From the NCBI RefSeq assembly GCF_900177805.1, contig NZ_FXAX01000001.1, positions 1,116,001-1,180,000 of the forward strand: a DNA stretch of 64,000 bases. Reading direction: 5' to 3'. The notes below the pieces were generated by a model. It did not search any database, was not told the origin of the DNA, and saw only the letters and a list, made by a program, of their open reading frames with translations. This DNA is from Fibrobacter sp. UWB13 (GTDB taxonomy: Bacteria > Fibrobacterota > Fibrobacteria > Fibrobacterales > Fibrobacteraceae). Positions 11,863 through 19,361 of the stretch are shown here, piece after piece. Every line of letters begins with the position of its first letter. The first letter of the stretch is position 1. A program made the translations under genes and the position numbers.

Positions 11863-12040
11863 ACTGCAGAATTTCTTCGGCGGTCAATTCATCAAATTCC
11901 TTTCCCACACGCTCAGCGTACTTTCCCAATTCATAGATATTCAACTTGCTTTTCGGCGGATTCTTATACGGATCAGGCGGAGCCAAATACTCTTCCATGG
12001 AATCAGCTAAAATAACAGCGGGCTTTCTAATTCCACTCAT
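11849..12040 (-). CDS. 63-residue protein of unknown function coupled to the GNAT-like gene
   Basis: The start is set by a strong CTGGAGGT site 8-9 bases before the ATG at 12040, which lies inside the end of the upstream gene. The two reading frames overlap by 14 bases. The product is soluble, acidic in its second half (RVGKEFDELTAEEILQF), and has a Pro-rich middle (YLAPPDPYKNPPKS). No domain is recognised. Its size, its coupling to an acetyltransferase-like gene and its place beside a restriction locus would fit a toxin-antitoxin-like or accessory pair, but this is inference only. Confidence 0.65.
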   Translation of the reverse strand: MSGIRKPAVILADSMEEYLAPPDPYKNPPKSKLNIYELGKYAERVGKEFDELTAEEILQFKIP

Positions 12041-12584
12041 AGGTATAGACCTCCAGGAGTTTTCGAGACGTTTCCGTTTTAACAGCAAATTGATATGGAT
12101 GCAACGCACCCAAATAAGTTGCTCCTAGAACATCAATATAATGATTTAACAGTTCCTTGTTAAGGGCAAAACCATAAATAAATCCATCATACCCCCAAGC
12201 AAAAGAACGGTCGGCCGCAATAGCAAAAAGATGACCTCCAACACCGATGTATTTTTGAACTTTTGCAAGGCCTTTGTTATTGTGCGGAGCAGTACATGCC
12301 CAATGAATATAAGCAGCCCGTGCGTCTACATCATTTCTCACCCCTACAAGCCCCTGGATTTCATTATTTTCCTTCAACGCAAGGGCAAAAACTTCAACTT
12401 CTTTGGGCGTTTTTATCCAATTGATTCCCCAACCATTCTTTTCGTTGAATTGTCTCAGGAAAGACCTACTTTCAATCCTGAACACCACAGTTTCCTTAAT
12501 TTCACCAGTCTCGGTATCTTTGAGACAGGGAACAATTTCGTCAAGCCAAATGCCGACACCACCAGCGTTTACTCCATTCTTCAT
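12027..12584 (-). CDS. GNAT-like acetyltransferase-fold protein, unknown substrate
   Basis: Start taken at the ATG at 12584 (MKNGVNAGGVGIWLDE); the longer frame adds 30 unlikely residues. The 185-residue product has a central stretch, VFALALKENNEIQGLVGVRN, then AAYIHWACTAPHN, then an alpha segment ending GGHLFAIAADRSFAWGYDGF. This pattern of strands followed by a helix resembles the acetyl-CoA binding core of GNAT enzymes, but the standard R/QxxGxG/A loop is only loosely present (KYIGVGGH). Its stop overlaps the start of the 63-residue gene. It is probably one transcript with it. The substrate is unknown. Confidence 0.6.
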   Translation of the reverse strand: MKNGVNAGGVGIWLDEIVPCLKDTETGEIKETVVFRIESRSFLRQFNEKNGWGINWIKTPKEVEVFALALKENNEIQGLVGVRNDVDARAAYIHWACTAPHNNKGLAKVQKYIGVGGHLFAIAADRSFAWGYDGFIYGFALNKELLNHYIDVLGATYLGALHPYQFAVKTETSRKLLEVYTYEWN

Positions 12585-12735
12585 TTTTCGCTCCTCTCCG
12601 CCTACAAGCATAAAAAGGCGGGGCTTAATTGTTTGTCGCCCAAAGCATATAAGTATACATTTGAACACTAACAAATATAAATTACTAGATGGCGATAGTC
12701 AAGAGGTTTTCCACTTTTTTGTCATTTATCTCATT

Positions 12736-12832: not shown

Positions 12833-15805
12833 CTATCCGACAGTCGCTCTCACCATTGTTCTTGCAGCAGAAATGACCCGTTCCACGAGGAAATTTTGAA
12901 ATTCCTGATTATTAAGGAATATGCGGAAGAGTTCCGAGCGGGCAGCCATATTCTTGACGATGATTTGCTGCAAGGCATCATTGCCTTCGATTTGCACAGT
13001 TGATTCATCGGCATGCAAAACGGCATTGGCGAAACTTTCATTTTCGGCAAGTTCCTTGGGCAGTTCATCAATATCCTTCTTGACCTTATCGGGATATTCC
13101 CATTCCACACCGCCGTAGCGTTGATTGAATTCCTCCAGAATATCACTCAACTTGACAAGTTCCGGTTCCTTTTTGCCAACGGCTCCATTACCTGTCGGCA
13201 CGGGCGCGATTTCGGCATTCTCGTTTTCGAGAGAAATCTTTGCCGCTTCTTGCTCCACAATTCGTAATTGGTCAAAGTCAATAGAATCTAACAAGCCTTC
13301 TGTAAAGTCGTCATCTTTTAACTTTGGCAATTTCGTCACGAGAAACTTGTAGAACGTCCAGCGTTTTTCCCAATCCTTACTACCGAACGGCATAATGGCA
13401 GCAAGGAAAGTGTAGATGCGCACGAAATTCTTCATGGCACTCTTGCATGCAATTTGCTGTTCTTCTTGCAAGTCATTCTTAAAGCGGTCCACGCACACAT
13501 TGATAATCGGATCCAGTTCTTCGCGTGGAGCAGAACCAAAATACTTTTGGCAATACAAATCTATCTCGGCTTGCGTGTAGATATTGTATTCATCCAACTC
13601 AAAAATCAAGTCGTTCAGTTTATTCGGATCGGTTTCGCCAGCAAGCGTCGTCATCTTGTAATAGCGTTGGAACGACGCCTTGATATTTTCAGGCTCATTC
13701 GCGAAATCGAGAATGAAGGTATCTTTCTTTTTTGGATGACAGCGATTTAAGCGGCTAAGCGTCTGCACAGCCTTGATATCTGTTAAGCCTTTATCGACAT
13801 ACATCGTATGCAGCAGCGGTTCATCGTAACCCGTCTGGAATTTGTCGGCAACAACAAGAATGCGATACGGGTCCACCTTCATGTTCTTTTCGATATCGGC
13901 AGACGGGAACTTGTTGATGCTCGCCTCGGTTTCTTCCTTGCCGTGATACATTTTCTTTCCGCTAAATGCAACAACAGCCTTGTACGGACTCTTCATATCC
14001 TGCAACTGCTTCGAAATGGCGTAATAGTAATCAATCGCCCTTTCGATTCCGGCAGTCACCACCATGGCACGGGCCTGTCCACCCACCTTGTTCTTGTTGA
14101 TGACGTTATTGATAAAGTGGTTTACAATGATGGCGGCCTTTTTCTCGACCGTTTCGGGGCGACTCTCCACATACCAGCGGATTTTCTTTTGCGCCTGGTC
14201 GCGGTCAAATTCAGGATTTTCCTTTCGCTTGCGGATGATTTCCGATTCAACGACCTTGTAGTAACTCTGGTACGGCGTATAGTTTTTCAGCACATCCAGG
14301 ATAAAGCCTTCCTGAATGGCCTGGCGCATGGTGTAATTGTGGTGCGGTTCGAATTTCGGTTTTCCATCAGGTTGTGGAATCTTTTTTCCGAACATTTCGA
14401 GAGTTTTGTTCTTGGGAGTCGCGGTAAAGGCGTAGTAATTCGCGTTCTTTACCATCTTACGACCTTCTATAGTCTTGTTCAAGATGTCTTCGAAATCTTC
14501 CTCACTCTCAGCATCAACACCGGAAATTGCCATATTCATTTTAGCCGAAAGCGAGCCGTTTTGACTACTATGAGCTTCGTCAATGATAATTGCAAAACGA
14601 CGGTTTGCAAGCGTCGTGCCTATTTCCTTGAGAATAAAAGGGAATTTGTGAACAATCGTGATGATAATTCGCTTGCCAGCAGTGAGTTCATTGCGCAGCG
14701 TTTCCGAAGAATCCGCCCAACCAACAATATTACCAAGTTGGTTATAGGCTTTTATATTATTACGAATTTGCTTGTCAAGATTCACACGGTCAGTTACAAC
14801 AATAATGGAATCCATCAGCTTCTCTGTACCACGCAATTGCTGAGCAAGCATAAAGGCGAGCCACGTAATCGTATTCGATTTACCCGAACCCGCACTATGC
14901 TGAATCAGGAATTTTTGCCCTAATTCATGCGACTTGGTTTCTCTTACCAAATAACGAACCGCATCAAGCTGGTGGTAACGAGGCCACACAACAGATTCTT
15001 TAACAAGCCTTCCTTTTTCATCTGTAAATCTAGCCACTTGTGCCAAATTTTCAATAATGTACGAGAGCGTAGGCTTTGTAAGCACGTAATCCCATAAGTA
15101 GGCCGTTCGCGGACCATTCGGATTCAACGGATTGCCAGCACCTCCATCAACACCCTTGTCAAACGGCAGGAACCACGATTCCTTGCCCTTCAATTCCGTA
15201 CACATGCGGATGTTGTCATCATCTACGGCAAAGTGGACCGCACAACGCCTGGGCTGCAACAGCAATTCCTTGGGATTGCGTTCATTCGGGTTAGAATACT
15301 GTGCAACCGCATTCAACACGGTCTGGCCGGTATAATGATTCTTGAGTTCAATGGTGATGACAGGCATGCCGTTAATGAAAATCACCATGTCGATAGAGAG
15401 ATCCGGATTTGCGACGCTAAAGTGAACCTGGCGTGTGACAGAAAAAATATTTTTATTGTAAAAGACATGTCCCGATTCGCTTAATTCAGAAGGGAGTGGG
15501 TAATACATGTCAAAATGCGTGGTATTGTAATTGTACCCCTTGCGAATAACATCAATAACACCACGCTTAGTAATTTCGTTTTTGAGTCGTTCGAAGAATG
15601 AATGTCGTGAGTGTTCATTGCTAAAATCTACAGCATTTCGAACTTTATCCTGTTGCGTATCACAAAGGAACGTTTCGATCTTATTGCAATCTAAAGCATA
15701 ATCGGTGCTGTAATCGGATGATATCCCCCTAAAGTAGCCGTTCTGCTCAAGAAGGTATTTTTCGATGAGAGTTTCGAGACCTTTTTCTGAAGTATCCGTT
15801 GGCAT
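12833..15805 (-). CDS. hsdR: type I restriction enzyme, R subunit
   Basis: A 990-residue motor and nuclease subunit that cuts DNA after ATP-driven translocation when the HsdS target is unmethylated. The PD-(D/E)XK nuclease site is VITIELKNHYTGQT at about 155-168. The SF2 helicase Walker A is HSAGSGKS (about 301-308), the DEAH box is IIIDEAHSSQ (about 405-414), and later motifs include FTATPKNKT and QTGYDEPLLHTMYVDK. Full family length, and all key residues are present. GAGG lies 8 bases before the ATG at 15805. It is the last gene of the hsdM-hsdS-hsdR operon. Confidence 0.95.
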   Translation of the reverse strand: MPTDTSEKGLETLIEKYLLEQNGYFRGISSDYSTDYALDCNKIETFLCDTQQDKVRNAVDFSNEHSRHSFFERLKNEITKRGVIDVIRKGYNYNTTHFDMYYPLPSELSESGHVFYNKNIFSVTRQVHFSVANPDLSIDMVIFINGMPVITIELKNHYTGQTVLNAVAQYSNPNERNPKELLLQPRRCAVHFAVDDDNIRMCTELKGKESWFLPFDKGVDGGAGNPLNPNGPRTAYLWDYVLTKPTLSYIIENLAQVARFTDEKGRLVKESVVWPRYHQLDAVRYLVRETKSHELGQKFLIQHSAGSGKSNTITWLAFMLAQQLRGTEKLMDSIIVVTDRVNLDKQIRNNIKAYNQLGNIVGWADSSETLRNELTAGKRIIITIVHKFPFILKEIGTTLANRRFAIIIDEAHSSQNGSLSAKMNMAISGVDAESEEDFEDILNKTIEGRKMVKNANYYAFTATPKNKTLEMFGKKIPQPDGKPKFEPHHNYTMRQAIQEGFILDVLKNYTPYQSYYKVVESEIIRKRKENPEFDRDQAQKKIRWYVESRPETVEKKAAIIVNHFINNVINKNKVGGQARAMVVTAGIERAIDYYYAISKQLQDMKSPYKAVVAFSGKKMYHGKEETEASINKFPSADIEKNMKVDPYRILVVADKFQTGYDEPLLHTMYVDKGLTDIKAVQTLSRLNRCHPKKKDTFILDFANEPENIKASFQRYYKMTTLAGETDPNKLNDLIFELDEYNIYTQAEIDLYCQKYFGSAPREELDPIINVCVDRFKNDLQEEQQIACKSAMKNFVRIYTFLAAIMPFGSKDWEKRWTFYKFLVTKLPKLKDDDFTEGLLDSIDFDQLRIVEQEAAKISLENENAEIAPVPTGNGAVGKKEPELVKLSDILEEFNQRYGGVEWEYPDKVKKDIDELPKELAENESFANAVLHADESTVQIEGNDALQQIIVKNMAARSELFRIFLNNQEFQNFLVERVISAARTMVRATVG

Positions 15806-15827: not shown

Positions 15828-15854
15828 AGTTCACTGAGCTTGCCGAAGTGAACT
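15828..15854. repeat. hairpin repeat overlapping the hsdS stop codon
   Basis: AGTTCACT and AGTGAACT form an 8-bp stem around an 11-base loop (GAGCTTGCCGA). The right arm covers the TAG stop of hsdS, read on the minus strand. The sequence matches a short interspersed palindrome type common in intergenic DNA of several phyla. It could slow or stop transcription between hsdS and hsdR and so lower hsdR expression. Confidence 0.7.
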
Positions 15855-17121
15855 AACAAACTTTTACCTTGCCTGTAACCACATCACTTATCAAACTTTG
15901 CTTATACTCGTTCAAGTTCGCAATCTGATTTTCGATGGACGCAATCTGAGAATCGATAGAAGAAACTTTCTTCTCTATATAGGCAACAATTTCCTTTTGT
16001 TCGGAAAGAGGGGGAATAATCACAGGAAATGTATAGAACTTACTTGGATATAATCTCAATCTACTGTCAATAATCCCTTTTGAAAGAGTTTTAAAAGCCC
16101 CTGCATAAGCCTTTAGCCTCAGCAAATAGTGAAAGTACTTCGGAACACAATCAATTATAAAATTGAACACGCAATACGCAGGACTTATCACACCTTCTAA
16201 TTCTGAAACAGCATAACTACCATTCCACGCAAGCATAATATTCATTACAAACTGATTTTTGTGAACAATTTTATAACCTTCAGTTGTTTCCGCCTCAAAC
16301 ATCCCAACCTTTTCACAATCTCGCTTTAAAGAAACTCCAGTGTACTGTGAAAGGCTTAACAATTCACCTGTATTATCGGTAATTTTCTCATCGCTCTCAT
16401 TAAAAACATGTCTTATTCTTTTTACTTCCCAGTTTTCAGGGATTTTCCCAATCCAGGAGATGCCAGAGTCTTTCATTCGGCAATCCTTATTCAACTTGCC
16501 TGTGACGGCATTTGCGATAACGGACTGTTTGTATTCTTTCAGGAGTTCGATTTGTTTCTGTTTTGCCGAAACAAGTTCATTGATTTGTGCAGTCTTTTTG
16601 TCCAAGTATTCCGCAATCGCCTTTTGTTCTGAGAGAGGAGGGATAGGAATAAGTTGATTTTTTATATCTGCAAATGACAAAGTTAGCCTAATTCCAGAAC
16701 CCATTCCATGAAGCATCTTTTTATTATCCATTGTCTTGAAAAGCCATAGATAATACATGGAATCGATGGAATTCTTTGGGGACATAGCTATATAAGCAGA
16801 TGTAATAATACCCGGAGCAGGGCATATCGCAACACGCTGGGAAACGAAGTCGTAATTAAGATTTAGGCCATTAAAAACAATATCATTCTCGTTTAAAACC
16901 GTGTATTTGACATAGGTATCTTCATATTCCCGTTCATCGCCAAGTTCATTCTTCAGAACAAGGGAACCAAATTTAAACTGATAAGCCTTTTTGAAGATGA
17001 AATCTTTATTTAGCGCTTTGTTTTCATTAAAATACGCTCCAACACGTTTCGTTTCCCAATGTTCCGGCACCTCTCCTATCCAAGAGATTCCTGAATCCTT
17101 GTATCGCGCATACTTTCTCAT
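15853..17121 (-). CDS. hsdS: type I restriction-modification specificity subunit
   Basis: Start taken at the ATG at 17121 (MRKYARYKDSGISWIGE), with AAAGGAA about 9 bases upstream. The longer frame reads into repeat DNA. The 422-residue protein has two target-recognition domains. Each is introduced by a near-identical block (KDSGISWIGEVPEHWE and KDSGISWIGKIPENWE). Each is followed by a conserved linker helix (IPPLSEQKAIAEYLDKK and IPPLSEQKEIVAYIEKK). This gives the usual pseudo-symmetric layout for a split, bipartite DNA target. No spare hsdS fragments or inverted copies for specificity switching are seen nearby. Confidence 0.93.
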   Translation of the reverse strand: MRKYARYKDSGISWIGEVPEHWETKRVGAYFNENKALNKDFIFKKAYQFKFGSLVLKNELGDEREYEDTYVKYTVLNENDIVFNGLNLNYDFVSQRVAICPAPGIITSAYIAMSPKNSIDSMYYLWLFKTMDNKKMLHGMGSGIRLTLSFADIKNQLIPIPPLSEQKAIAEYLDKKTAQINELVSAKQKQIELLKEYKQSVIANAVTGKLNKDCRMKDSGISWIGKIPENWEVKRIRHVFNESDEKITDNTGELLSLSQYTGVSLKRDCEKVGMFEAETTEGYKIVHKNQFVMNIMLAWNGSYAVSELEGVISPAYCVFNFIIDCVPKYFHYLLRLKAYAGAFKTLSKGIIDSRLRLYPSKFYTFPVIIPPLSEQKEIVAYIEKKVSSIDSQIASIENQIANLNEYKQSLISDVVTGKVKVC

Positions 17122-17142
17122 ACAAACAAATTCCTTTAGATT

Positions 17143-17210
17143 CTTCGACTCCACTTCGTTCCGCTCAGAATGACACTCGAATAAGAGATTGCTTCGCTCA
17201 GGATGACAAA
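17143..17210. repeat. two degenerate interspersed repeats between hsdM and hsdS
   Basis: Two neighbouring units, CCGCTCAGAATGACA and TTCGCTCAGGATGACAA, end in the ATGACA signature found at several other intergenic sites here. They fill most of the 94-base gap between hsdM and hsdS. These two genes are normally tightly coupled, so the units look inserted. Confidence 0.75.
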
Positions 17211-17215
17211 TGGGG

Positions 17216-19054
17216 CTATTCTTCCAGAATCTCCGCTAGGGCACCTTCGGTTTGCCGTTCCAGTTTCATGATGTCGTTCTTGATATCTTTCAGGCTACGG
17301 AGTTCCACAGGCTTGTAGAAATACTTGGTAAAGCTCAGTTCGTAACCAATGGTGGGTTCGCCGAAAATCACGTCGGGCGTGTAGGGTTTGACTTCGTTCT
17401 CGTAGAAGCCTTCAATCCCGCCAGGATAGTTCATCGGAATCTGTTCCGTTTCGTTACGGCTCGCCTTGTATTTTACATTGCCTTTCTTGTCCTTGACCGG
17501 TTTTCCACTTTCGTCCAATACGGGCTTCATCAGCGGCACAGACCAGTAACCGAATTCAGAATTGTCGAAAATCTTGCTCTGTTCCGTTTCCTTGAAATCC
17601 ATCAGGAGTTTCAAAATCTTTGCACGGTCCGCCTCGTTCGTTTCGCAATTCTTTTCGCCCAGATTCTTGCGAAGCGGGGTCTTGATGGCAGTCGCATCAA
17701 TCAACTGCACCTTGCCCTTGCGGCGTTTTTCCTTGCGGTTCGTGACAATCCAGATGTAGGTGCCGATACCCGTGTTGTAGAAATCCTTTTCAGGCATGGC
17801 GACAATCGCTTCGAGCATATCGTTTTCGATGATATACTTGCGCAAGTTGCTATTGCCCGAGCCCGCATCACCCGTAAAGAGCGAACTTCCGTTGTGTACT
17901 TCCACAATGCGAGTGCCGAGTTCCGTTTCCTTCATGCGGCTCACGTTGTTCGCCAAGAAGAGCATCTGCGGGTCGCCAATGTCGGGGACAAAGTTTATGT
18001 CGTCCGAAAGCACAAAACGGCTGTCGGTGATTTCCTTCTTGTCCGAAATTCCCCAGTTCTTGAGGTCTTCTTTCCATGCCGTACCAAACGGCGGGTTCGA
18101 AATGCAGAAGTCATAAGTTTCGCCAATGTGACCGTCTTGCGAAATGGTCGAGCCAAAAGCGATATAATCGCGCTGCTGCTTGTTCAACGAATAACTGAAG
18201 CTCTTGATTTGGCCCGAAATCATGATGTCCGCCTTGCAGGTGGCGTAAGTATCGGGCATCAGTTCCTGACCGAAAATGTGAATCTTGATTTTCTTGTCGC
18301 GTTCTTTCGCCATGTCAAGGATTTTCTCCTTGGCAACCGACAAGATTCCTCCCGTACCGCAGGCTCCATCGTAAATGGTGTATGTCGAATTTTCAAGTTT
18401 GTCCGCAATCGGGAGTATAGTCAAGTCGGCAAGCAGTTTCACCATATCGCGCGGCGTAAAGTGACGACCGGCGCTAGTCACCGCGTAGGCTTCGTTGAAG
18501 CGGCGAAGCAGTTCTTCGAACACCGTTCCCATCATGTGGTTATCGACACCGGGCAAGGTCTCTTTTCCGCTCGCATCTTTTACAGACAAGATTCCCAAGT
18601 TGATGGACTTGTCGGTAAACTTCTCGAGAATGGATCCCAGGCGGTTGTTCTCGGTAAGCTTGTCGATGGTCGGCAACAGTTCGAATTTCTTGACAATATC
18701 CTGGACATCCTTGCTATAGCCGTCGATGTATTCCAAGAAGTTCATTTTGAGACGGGAAGGATTTGTCTCTGCCGTCAGCGTGCGCATCGTGAACTTTGAA
18801 ACATTCACAAAGGGATACTTGGTGATGGCGGTCAGCACAGGCTCGTAGTTCACAATCTTCTGCTTGTCGAGTTCGGCCTTTTGCTTGAGAACAGCCTCTT
18901 TTGTGGGCTCCAAAAGCACATCAATGCGGCGGAGCACCATCATCGGGAGAATGACCTTCTTGTAATCAACCTGTTCAAAAACATCCACCAACACATCGTT
19001 GGCGATATTCCACATAAAACTGACCAGCTTGTTGAACTGCTGCGTGTTATCCAT
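17216..19054 (-). CDS. hsdM: type I restriction-modification methyltransferase subunit
   Basis: A 612-residue N6-adenine methyltransferase subunit. The N-terminal HsdM_N bundle spans about 1-150. The S-adenosylmethionine site is YDGACGTGGIL (about 226-236), and the catalytic NPPF lies in CISNPPFGTAW (about 316-326). Together with HsdS it methylates the host target and protects it from HsdR. TTGAGG sits 5 bases before the ATG at 19054. It is the first gene of the operon. The structured RNA candidate ends about 70 bases upstream. Confidence 0.95.
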   Translation of the reverse strand: MDNTQQFNKLVSFMWNIANDVLVDVFEQVDYKKVILPMMVLRRIDVLLEPTKEAVLKQKAELDKQKIVNYEPVLTAITKYPFVNVSKFTMRTLTAETNPSRLKMNFLEYIDGYSKDVQDIVKKFELLPTIDKLTENNRLGSILEKFTDKSINLGILSVKDASGKETLPGVDNHMMGTVFEELLRRFNEAYAVTSAGRHFTPRDMVKLLADLTILPIADKLENSTYTIYDGACGTGGILSVAKEKILDMAKERDKKIKIHIFGQELMPDTYATCKADIMISGQIKSFSYSLNKQQRDYIAFGSTISQDGHIGETYDFCISNPPFGTAWKEDLKNWGISDKKEITDSRFVLSDDINFVPDIGDPQMLFLANNVSRMKETELGTRIVEVHNGSSLFTGDAGSGNSNLRKYIIENDMLEAIVAMPEKDFYNTGIGTYIWIVTNRKEKRRKGKVQLIDATAIKTPLRKNLGEKNCETNEADRAKILKLLMDFKETEQSKIFDNSEFGYWSVPLMKPVLDESGKPVKDKKGNVKYKASRNETEQIPMNYPGGIEGFYENEVKPYTPDVIFGEPTIGYELSFTKYFYKPVELRSLKDIKNDIMKLERQTEGALAEILEE

Positions 19055-19122
19055 AAGAACCTCAATTGTAAGCCCTTATGCAAGCACAATCAACAATCGC
19101 TCTAAATGACGTTTATGACAAC

Positions 19123-19302
19123 AAAAAAGGCGTGGTATCGAATGCACCTACCGCCTCAGGTAACGACCAAGTAACCCAGTATCAGATAAGCACAAACGAC
19201 CCACGCACAGGGTGCGTGAGTGTCTGCCTTACTCTCTGATACTTGAAATTTTGGTCGTTTTCGAGGCGAGAATAAGAGCTATAACTCAAATTTCTATGCG
19301 CC
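19123..19302 (-). ncRNA. candidate structured RNA, long rod with internal loops (6S-like architecture)
   Basis: In a 395-base gene-free stretch, five nested stems line up. GGCG 19129-19132 pairs with CGCC 19299-19302. CGCCTC 19152-19157 pairs with GAGGCG 19263-19268. AACGACCAA 19162-19170 pairs with TTGGTCGTT 19251-19259. AGTATCAGA 19178-19186 pairs with TCTGATACT 19235-19243. CACGCAC 19202-19208 pairs with GTGCGTG 19212-19218 around an AGG loop. A large bubble lies between the outer two stems, with a small GAG/CTC hairpin on one side. On the minus strand the closing stem is directly followed by six T, so this strand is favoured. It could be 6S-like RNA, an hsdM leader, or an unknown RNA. The rest of 19055-19449 holds one repeat and nothing else recognised. 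Confidence 0.6.
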
Positions 19303-19361
19303 CTACATCTTGCGATGCAAGGCTATGTCACTAACAATATAGATTATTCAAAAGAAAAAGG

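Follow-up and report, generated by a model that had tools for sequence, protein, structure and literature searches.

What is the long, highly structured stretch of gene-free DNA that precedes a type I restriction-modification (R-M) operon in Fibrobacter sp. UWB13? The window, that is, the whole stretch of DNA that we analyzed, spans 64,000 nucleotides (nt) of this genome (NZ_FXAX01000001.1, positions 1,116,001 to 1,180,000) and holds a gap of 395 bases that separates the start of hsdM (19054, minus strand) from the end of the next gene on that strand (19450). An earlier note, made from the sequence alone, had picked out positions 19123–19302 of this gap as a candidate rod-like RNA. We report, with moderate confidence, that the element is a cis-acting 5′ leader of the hsdMSR operon working as a transcription attenuator. 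It belongs to a multicopy RNA family of hundreds of copies that is absent from Rfam 15 and apparently undescribed, and whose best reading, from sequence, is that of attenuating leaders serving mostly R-M operons.

The earlier note described the gap, the T6 tract on the minus strand (19123–19128) and the gene calls correctly, and the order it saw lies far above chance. The minus strand of 19123–19302 folds at −74.6 kcal/mol (z −7.0) and the plus strand at −63.1 kcal/mol (z −5.6), with none of 200 dinucleotide shuffles as good in either case; the minus strand is the stronger, and a structured RNA on that strand, acting as a leader that controls the restriction operon, is the best-supported of the roles then proposed. 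The extent given at the time holds for the structure itself but not for its limits, since the element continues past 19302 to include a hairpin (P1), a (T)GACATAG 5′ end and a −10-like TATATT box. The RNA lies on the hsdMSR strand and probably spans about 19328 to 19123, with the T6 at its end, 68 nt before hsdM. The short closing stem (GGCG/CGCC) drawn in the earlier note is probably not a native pairing, because in the full-length RNA its GGGC is taken up by the 3′ arm of P1. The CCACGCC beside the T6 is instead complementary to GCGTGG, the 3′ arm of the inner hairpin, with covariation across copies, a pairing that would compete with the rod by forming an intrinsic terminator.

Read 5′ to 3′ on the hsd strand (all features below are on the minus strand), the leader is preceded by the TATATT box (19336–19341), the −10-like part of a predicted promoter; 71 aligned copies carry a similar A/T-rich box at the same spacing, and no conserved −35 was seen. 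After 5–6 nt comes the conserved 5′ end, TGACATAG (19323–19330), nearly invariant in the 71 copies and the predicted start region, the start being placed near 19328. It is followed by P1 (GCCTTGCATC / GATGTAGGGC, 19300–19323), whose arms co-vary across the aligned copies, and by a small hairpin, GAG..GCTC (19276–19287), conserved in the alignments. Helix A, a helix called by RNAalifold, has a 5′ strand, a (CTTATTCTC, 19268–19276), and a 3′ strand, a′ (GAGAGTAAG, 19228–19236), with b′ and b as their respective alternative partners in the rod. It encloses the locus-specific loop A (19236–19267), made up of y (19263–19267), K1 (GAAA..TTTC, 19245–19262) and z (19236–19243). Next stands hairpin C (ACTCACGCAC / GTGCGTGGGT, 19199–19221), marked by compensatory changes at alignment columns 82/95 and 84/93, whose 3′ arm doubles as the 5′ arm of the terminator (TGCGTGGGTCG, 19197–19207). 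The 3′ half consists of b (GTGCTTAT, 19186–19193), the partner of a′ in the rod and of b′ in the terminator; loop B (19153–19185), with z′ (19178–19185), the K2 hairpin (19159–19177, stem covariation at columns 128/144) and y′ (19153–19157); b′ (GTAGGTGC, 19144–19151, with alignment covariation); and CGAYWCCACGCC before the U-tract, the terminator 3′ arm CGATACCACGCC occupying 19129–19140. Beyond the U-tract there are usually 30–115 nt that hold a Shine-Dalgarno sequence and the start codon. In the window this spacer measures 68 nt (19055–19122) and carries a Shine-Dalgarno-like TTGAGG.

DNA of this element is found again in its own genome and in almost every Fibrobacter genome, including F. 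intestinalis ATCC 43854 (loci L242 and L244; L numbers are our own handles for loci). A covariance model built from 30 copies (R1) finds eight copies in the own genome. In a sample of the phylum it detects 1–16 copies in 66 of the 67 Fibrobacter genomes, matches a further 11 genomes of the family and gives weak matches in four genomes of other families. A second model (R2), built only from six copies of distant families, detects further copies in those families and recovers the Fibrobacter copies with E-values down to about 1e-16. When a 21-base conserved pattern was sought over 84,980 species, it was found only in Fibrobacter or Fibrobacteraceae records and in three oddly labeled contigs; it was absent from viral contigs, and phage and plasmid collections held no similar DNA. 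The three contigs (L228, L240 and L266) are labeled Bacteroidales, bacterium and archaeon; L240 and L266 match Fibrobacter loci at about 90%–96% identity and are probably mis-binned, and L228 gave no long match in the same comparison. The earlier note had seen no known sequence motif, and a search of the window against Rfam (release 15) gave no match at the gathering score and no credible weaker one; the sub-threshold cmscan matches to flavivirus CRE, FtrB and MIR319 are unrelated and were discarded.

Judged by the alignments, the leader has two mutually exclusive folds, each kept by compensatory change. The rod is built from the pairings y:y′, K1:K2, z:z′ and a′:b, with hairpin C closed. The terminator fold retains a:a′ and adds b:b′, and in it the last bases before the U-tract pair with the 3′ arm of hairpin C, which gives the long stem plus U-tract of an intrinsic terminator. 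RNAalifold, run on the 30-copy alignment, independently selected a:a′, hairpin C and b:b′, and both-side changes in that alignment also occur in b:b′ and in the K2 stem. For the rod, loop A forms a duplex of −27.7 ± 5.2 kcal/mol with its own loop B, compared with −10.8 ± 4.2 kcal/mol with the loop B of other copies, and the own loop B is the best partner in 67 of 76 copies; none of 5,000 permutations was as good for the y, x or z pairing, each taken separately, and the same holds for the loops of 16 distant copies. For the terminator, the arms co-vary over 90 copies (UCG:CGA, CCG:CGG, UUG:CAA) with a mean of −18.0 against −16.5 ± 0.15 for permuted partners (0 of 2,000 permutations as good), and a U-tract of at least four T ends 94 of 96 copies. 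Counted over helices A, B and C, G-U cells outnumber A-C cells by 483:14, and in 75 of 76 copies the sense strand folds better than the antisense strand; selection therefore acts on RNA of the hsd strand. Conservation of the stems in relatives, by which the earlier note proposed to judge its candidate, is thus seen in dozens of copies, in the form of compensatory change.

How might such a leader work? Transcription would start near 19328, as judged from the conserved −10 box and 5′ end, and helix A and hairpin C would form first as the RNA emerges. Once the 3′ half is out, two folds, each excluding the other, would be open to the RNA. Loop A (y-K1-z) would zip onto loop B (z′-K2-y′) in the rod, with hairpin C closed and a′ holding b, so that the terminator is blocked and hsdMSR is transcribed. 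In the alternative, b:b′ would pair and the last 12 nt before the U-tract would invade hairpin C to give a GCGUGGGUCG:CGAUACCACGC stem followed by U6, and transcription would end after about 205 nt with the release of a short leader RNA. Modeled energies fit a switch of this kind: in 85 copies the terminator fold is less stable than the minimum free energy (MFE) structure by a mean of 7.5 kcal/mol and is itself the MFE structure in 12, and helix A is present in the MFE structure of 63 of 80 transcripts ending just past hairpin C, a landscape of the sort expected of a co-transcriptional switch. The element has the features of an attenuator leader, namely a 5′ position on the strand of the operon, a GC-rich stem with a U-tract and an exclusive alternative fold, both folds being conserved. 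The sequence evidence speaks clearly for conservation of both folds, for a functional RNA on the hsd strand and for copies placed directly upstream of mostly R-M operons; that the terminator works, that the rod is its antiterminator and that the balance between them is regulated is what we infer from it. Leader-peptide attenuation was considered and rejected: ATG open reading frames of at least 10 codons occur in 40 of 94 leaders, but with no conserved start.

In the window, the operon comprises hsdM, the type I methylase subunit and first gene (17216–19054, minus strand; NCBIfam hsdM 2e-21, PF02384 1.2e-41), hsdS, the specificity subunit (15853–17154, minus; NCBIfam 1.1e-21), and hsdR, the restriction subunit (12833–15805, minus; NCBIfam hsdR 1.6e-57); the three NCBIfam matches fall below their curated cut-offs and are mutually consistent, and the N6_Mtase match lies above its own. 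In a context sample of 100 regions with 120 copies, an operon on the same strand follows at least 115 of the 120. A protein assigned to R-M by comparison with Pfam- or PADLOC-annotated seeds lies within 5 kb downstream of 51 of 76 non-redundant copies, and the systems concerned are unrelated, covering types I, II, IIG/ISP and III: type I (hsdMSR, hsdR-hsdM), type III Mod/Res, type ISP and IIG single chains, and MmeI-like, Eco57I-like, D12, EcoRI methylase and C5 methylase enzymes. Five more of the 76 copies precede a protein of 793–823 amino acids (aa) that has no Pfam or NCBIfam match and carries methylase motifs such as DPCAGVGN and NPPY; it is probably an undescribed single-chain R-M enzyme. 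We also note that this protein follows the leader in nine cases (L048:10474–12855, L155:2753–5170, L178:4910–7381, L241:2753–5170 and relatives). In ten near-complete genomes, a copy lies within 5 kb upstream of 25 of 64 PF02384/PF01555 methylase genes, compared with 1 of 64 at the mirror position, and such a gene lies downstream of 22 of the 31 copies that score at least 110 bits. The link between leader and R-M is strong, yet not exclusive. In distant families one target is an N6/N4 methylase, and most sampled targets are surface proteins or mobile-element primases.

Several points weigh against the attenuator reading or temper it. The permutation tests take no account of relatedness and are strong indications rather than exact probabilities, and the copies were gathered with a model that holds part of the structure, though neither the rod nor the terminator pairing. 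In the window copy the rod is ahead by 19 kcal/mol (−86.9 versus −67.7 for the terminator fold), so read-through would be expected unless kinetics or a factor favors termination. The main local doubt is a promoter-like TTGATT-17-TACAAT that fits within the 68-nt spacer before hsdM and may be a second promoter. Among the 64 methylase genes of the ten genomes, 39 lack the element, and some targets are not R-M at all, including an EndoU nuclease, a DAC/DACNG protein and TPR and membrane proteins.

The alternative that survives best keeps the attenuator and names its trigger: a metabolite such as S-adenosylmethionine, or a host protein, would select between the folds, making the element a riboswitch-like or protein-binding leader. 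We regard this as a tentative possibility, encouraged by highly conserved nucleotides outside the variable helices (such as GACATAG, GAAA..TTTC and GTTTGTGCTTAT); much of this conservation is, however, explained by the need of each strand to fit two partners, and no ligand class in Rfam matches.

A stand-alone small RNA, with its own promoter and terminator, would act in trans or in a complex and leave the R-M operon to a promoter in the spacer. The conserved −10 box, 5′ end and terminator do delimit a discrete unit of about 205 nt, and the promoter-like pair in the window's spacer would suit this arrangement. On the other side, the element keeps a fixed position upstream, and on the same strand, of very different operons, and competition between rod and terminator has no obvious use in a free RNA. 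The spacers of several copies are also too short for a promoter: their start codons lie 33–45 nt past the U-tract, which leaves little room for one, and we argue that these genes are therefore transcribed through the element. On balance a stand-alone RNA is unlikely. The spacers are modestly structured (mean z −1.0 over 59 copies), and some (among them L155, L038:14151 and L043) contain a hairpin, for example CATAAGGGC..GCCCTTATG, whose stem includes the start codon and whose loop carries the Shine-Dalgarno sequence, a possible second, translational layer of control.

Returning to the attenuator, one could ask whether the leader is its own signal. In pT181-type attenuation a separate antisense RNA binds a loop of the leader, and the target is a replication gene. 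A comparable self-addressed loop, in which a released leader would use its locus-specific loops to pair with nascent leader RNA from the locus it came from, bringing about termination, is attractive because the loops differ between copies. Within a genome, paralogues pair with each other a little less than expected (permutation fraction 0.03), which is a hint only, and we consider this version of the mechanism doubtful. If it were true, each R-M system would need no control protein to sense its dosage or the fact that it has just entered a naive cell, and differences in the loops from copy to copy would insulate one system from another.

It is more improbable still that the element is a processive antitermination signal, akin to HK022 put or the Bacillus EAR, which would modify RNA polymerase for full transcription of long accessory operons. 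The targets are indeed long, accessory and horizontally acquired operons, including those for surface proteins in distant families, but a conserved U-tract and terminator inside the element favor local attenuation. A DNA-level site, that is, a recombination or insertion signal for R-M cassettes resembling integron attC, is very improbable: copies in direct orientation do flank small gene cassettes, as at L042 and L048, yet tolerance of G-U and not of A-C, together with the better folding of the sense strand, indicates selection on RNA from one strand. Integron attC and other DNA recombination sites were rejected on this bias, and conservation is not strand-neutral. The resemblance to 6S RNA suggested by the earlier note, a rod with a bubble, can be set aside almost entirely, as no RF00013 match exists in the window or, at E ≤ 10, in the whole genome, with the same search matching 8 of 14 control genomes, and as the element is multicopy, two-state and tied to the gene downstream. 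As for a retron RNA, no reverse transcriptase was found among the downstream proteins scanned, some neighbors lying outside the scan.

The copies also vary in form and in their neighbors. A longer subtype, in which an expansion of hairpin C by about 65 nt gives copies of about 233 nt, occurs at L272–L288 and in the own genome (L126:2416–2660, L128:7034–7280). Those with a CAACTCCACGCC end stand before type II R-M systems, in several cases C5 methylases with Tsp45I, Eco47II or other type II endonucleases or an AAA_5 gene, and those with a AACGATCTGCGCC / AACGACTCGCGCC end stand before unrelated or unknown genes. Weaker copies with an altered 5′ half, which may be a separate subtype, lie between an R-M operon, whose end is about 70–140 nt upstream, and small genes such as that of an EndoU nuclease (L049:4002–4165, L135:7680–7851, L136:2301–2462, L050:7807–7975, L132:6734–6909, L133:7374–7549). 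Two leader copies bracket a cassette of three or four small genes (about 187–237, 130–139 and 118–119 aa) immediately upstream of an R-M operon that has a leader of its own (L042:7646–9615, L048:8434–10411, L054:7569–9841; also L140, L141, L144, L145 and L146); the members scanned have no PADLOC, Pfam or NCBIfam match. In the window, hsdR is followed by a 215-aa gene (12027–12674) that has no NCBIfam match and that, at other loci, again closes operons headed by the leader. At L322–L338 (families f7, f9 and f10 of the phylum), leaders of the same design are followed by large surface proteins (beta-propeller, fn3, Laminin_G) and by mobile-element primases, and three copies have a recurrent 246-aa gene nearby.

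How R-M genes are kept under control when they enter a new host is a recognized problem, and this leader would be a concrete, mutable element with which to test it. If the attenuator reading is true, a whole bacterial family controls unrelated R-M systems by one shared RNA device rather than by separate proteins, and the leaders form a natural set of apparently insulated RNA switches.

How does this compare with known systems? The literature describes control of R-M by C proteins, methylases, antisense RNAs and start-site hairpins; a shared attenuator leader was not found in the literature that we searched, a search that left out most subscription papers and all supplements. In EcoRI and Eco29kI, system-specific antisense transcripts arise inside the R-M genes (review PMC12707154), in a review whose text contains neither "attenuation" nor "leader". 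They share with the Fibrobacter leader the control of restriction genes at the RNA level; here, in contrast, one leader family serves unrelated R-M types. 6S RNA, which binds σ70 RNA polymerase and templates a product RNA, has only its rod shape in common with an element that fails its covariance model, is multicopy and is tied to a downstream operon. The put and EAR elements, compared through Rfam only, are likewise structured RNAs near the start of long accessory operons, but the Fibrobacter element includes a conserved competing intrinsic terminator. Closer are riboswitches, T-boxes and protein-controlled leaders, with which it shares a conserved 5′ leader and a competing terminator upstream of related operons; in contrast to them, its main variable feature is a pair of locus-specific loops and not a fixed aptamer, and it has no known ligand and no match in Rfam. 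The pT181-type plasmid attenuators combine exclusive terminator and antiterminator folds with system-specific loop-loop complementarity (PMC3753616), as the Fibrobacter leader appears to do, although we found no sequence relation between the two. In Fibrobacter both complementary loops lie in one RNA, the targets are chromosomal R-M operons, no antisense gene is known (no search was made for one) and the antisense strand folds less well. Taken together, the alignments and gene contexts indicate a leader that works like a transcription attenuator yet stands outside every Rfam family, a single RNA design placed before unrelated R-M systems.
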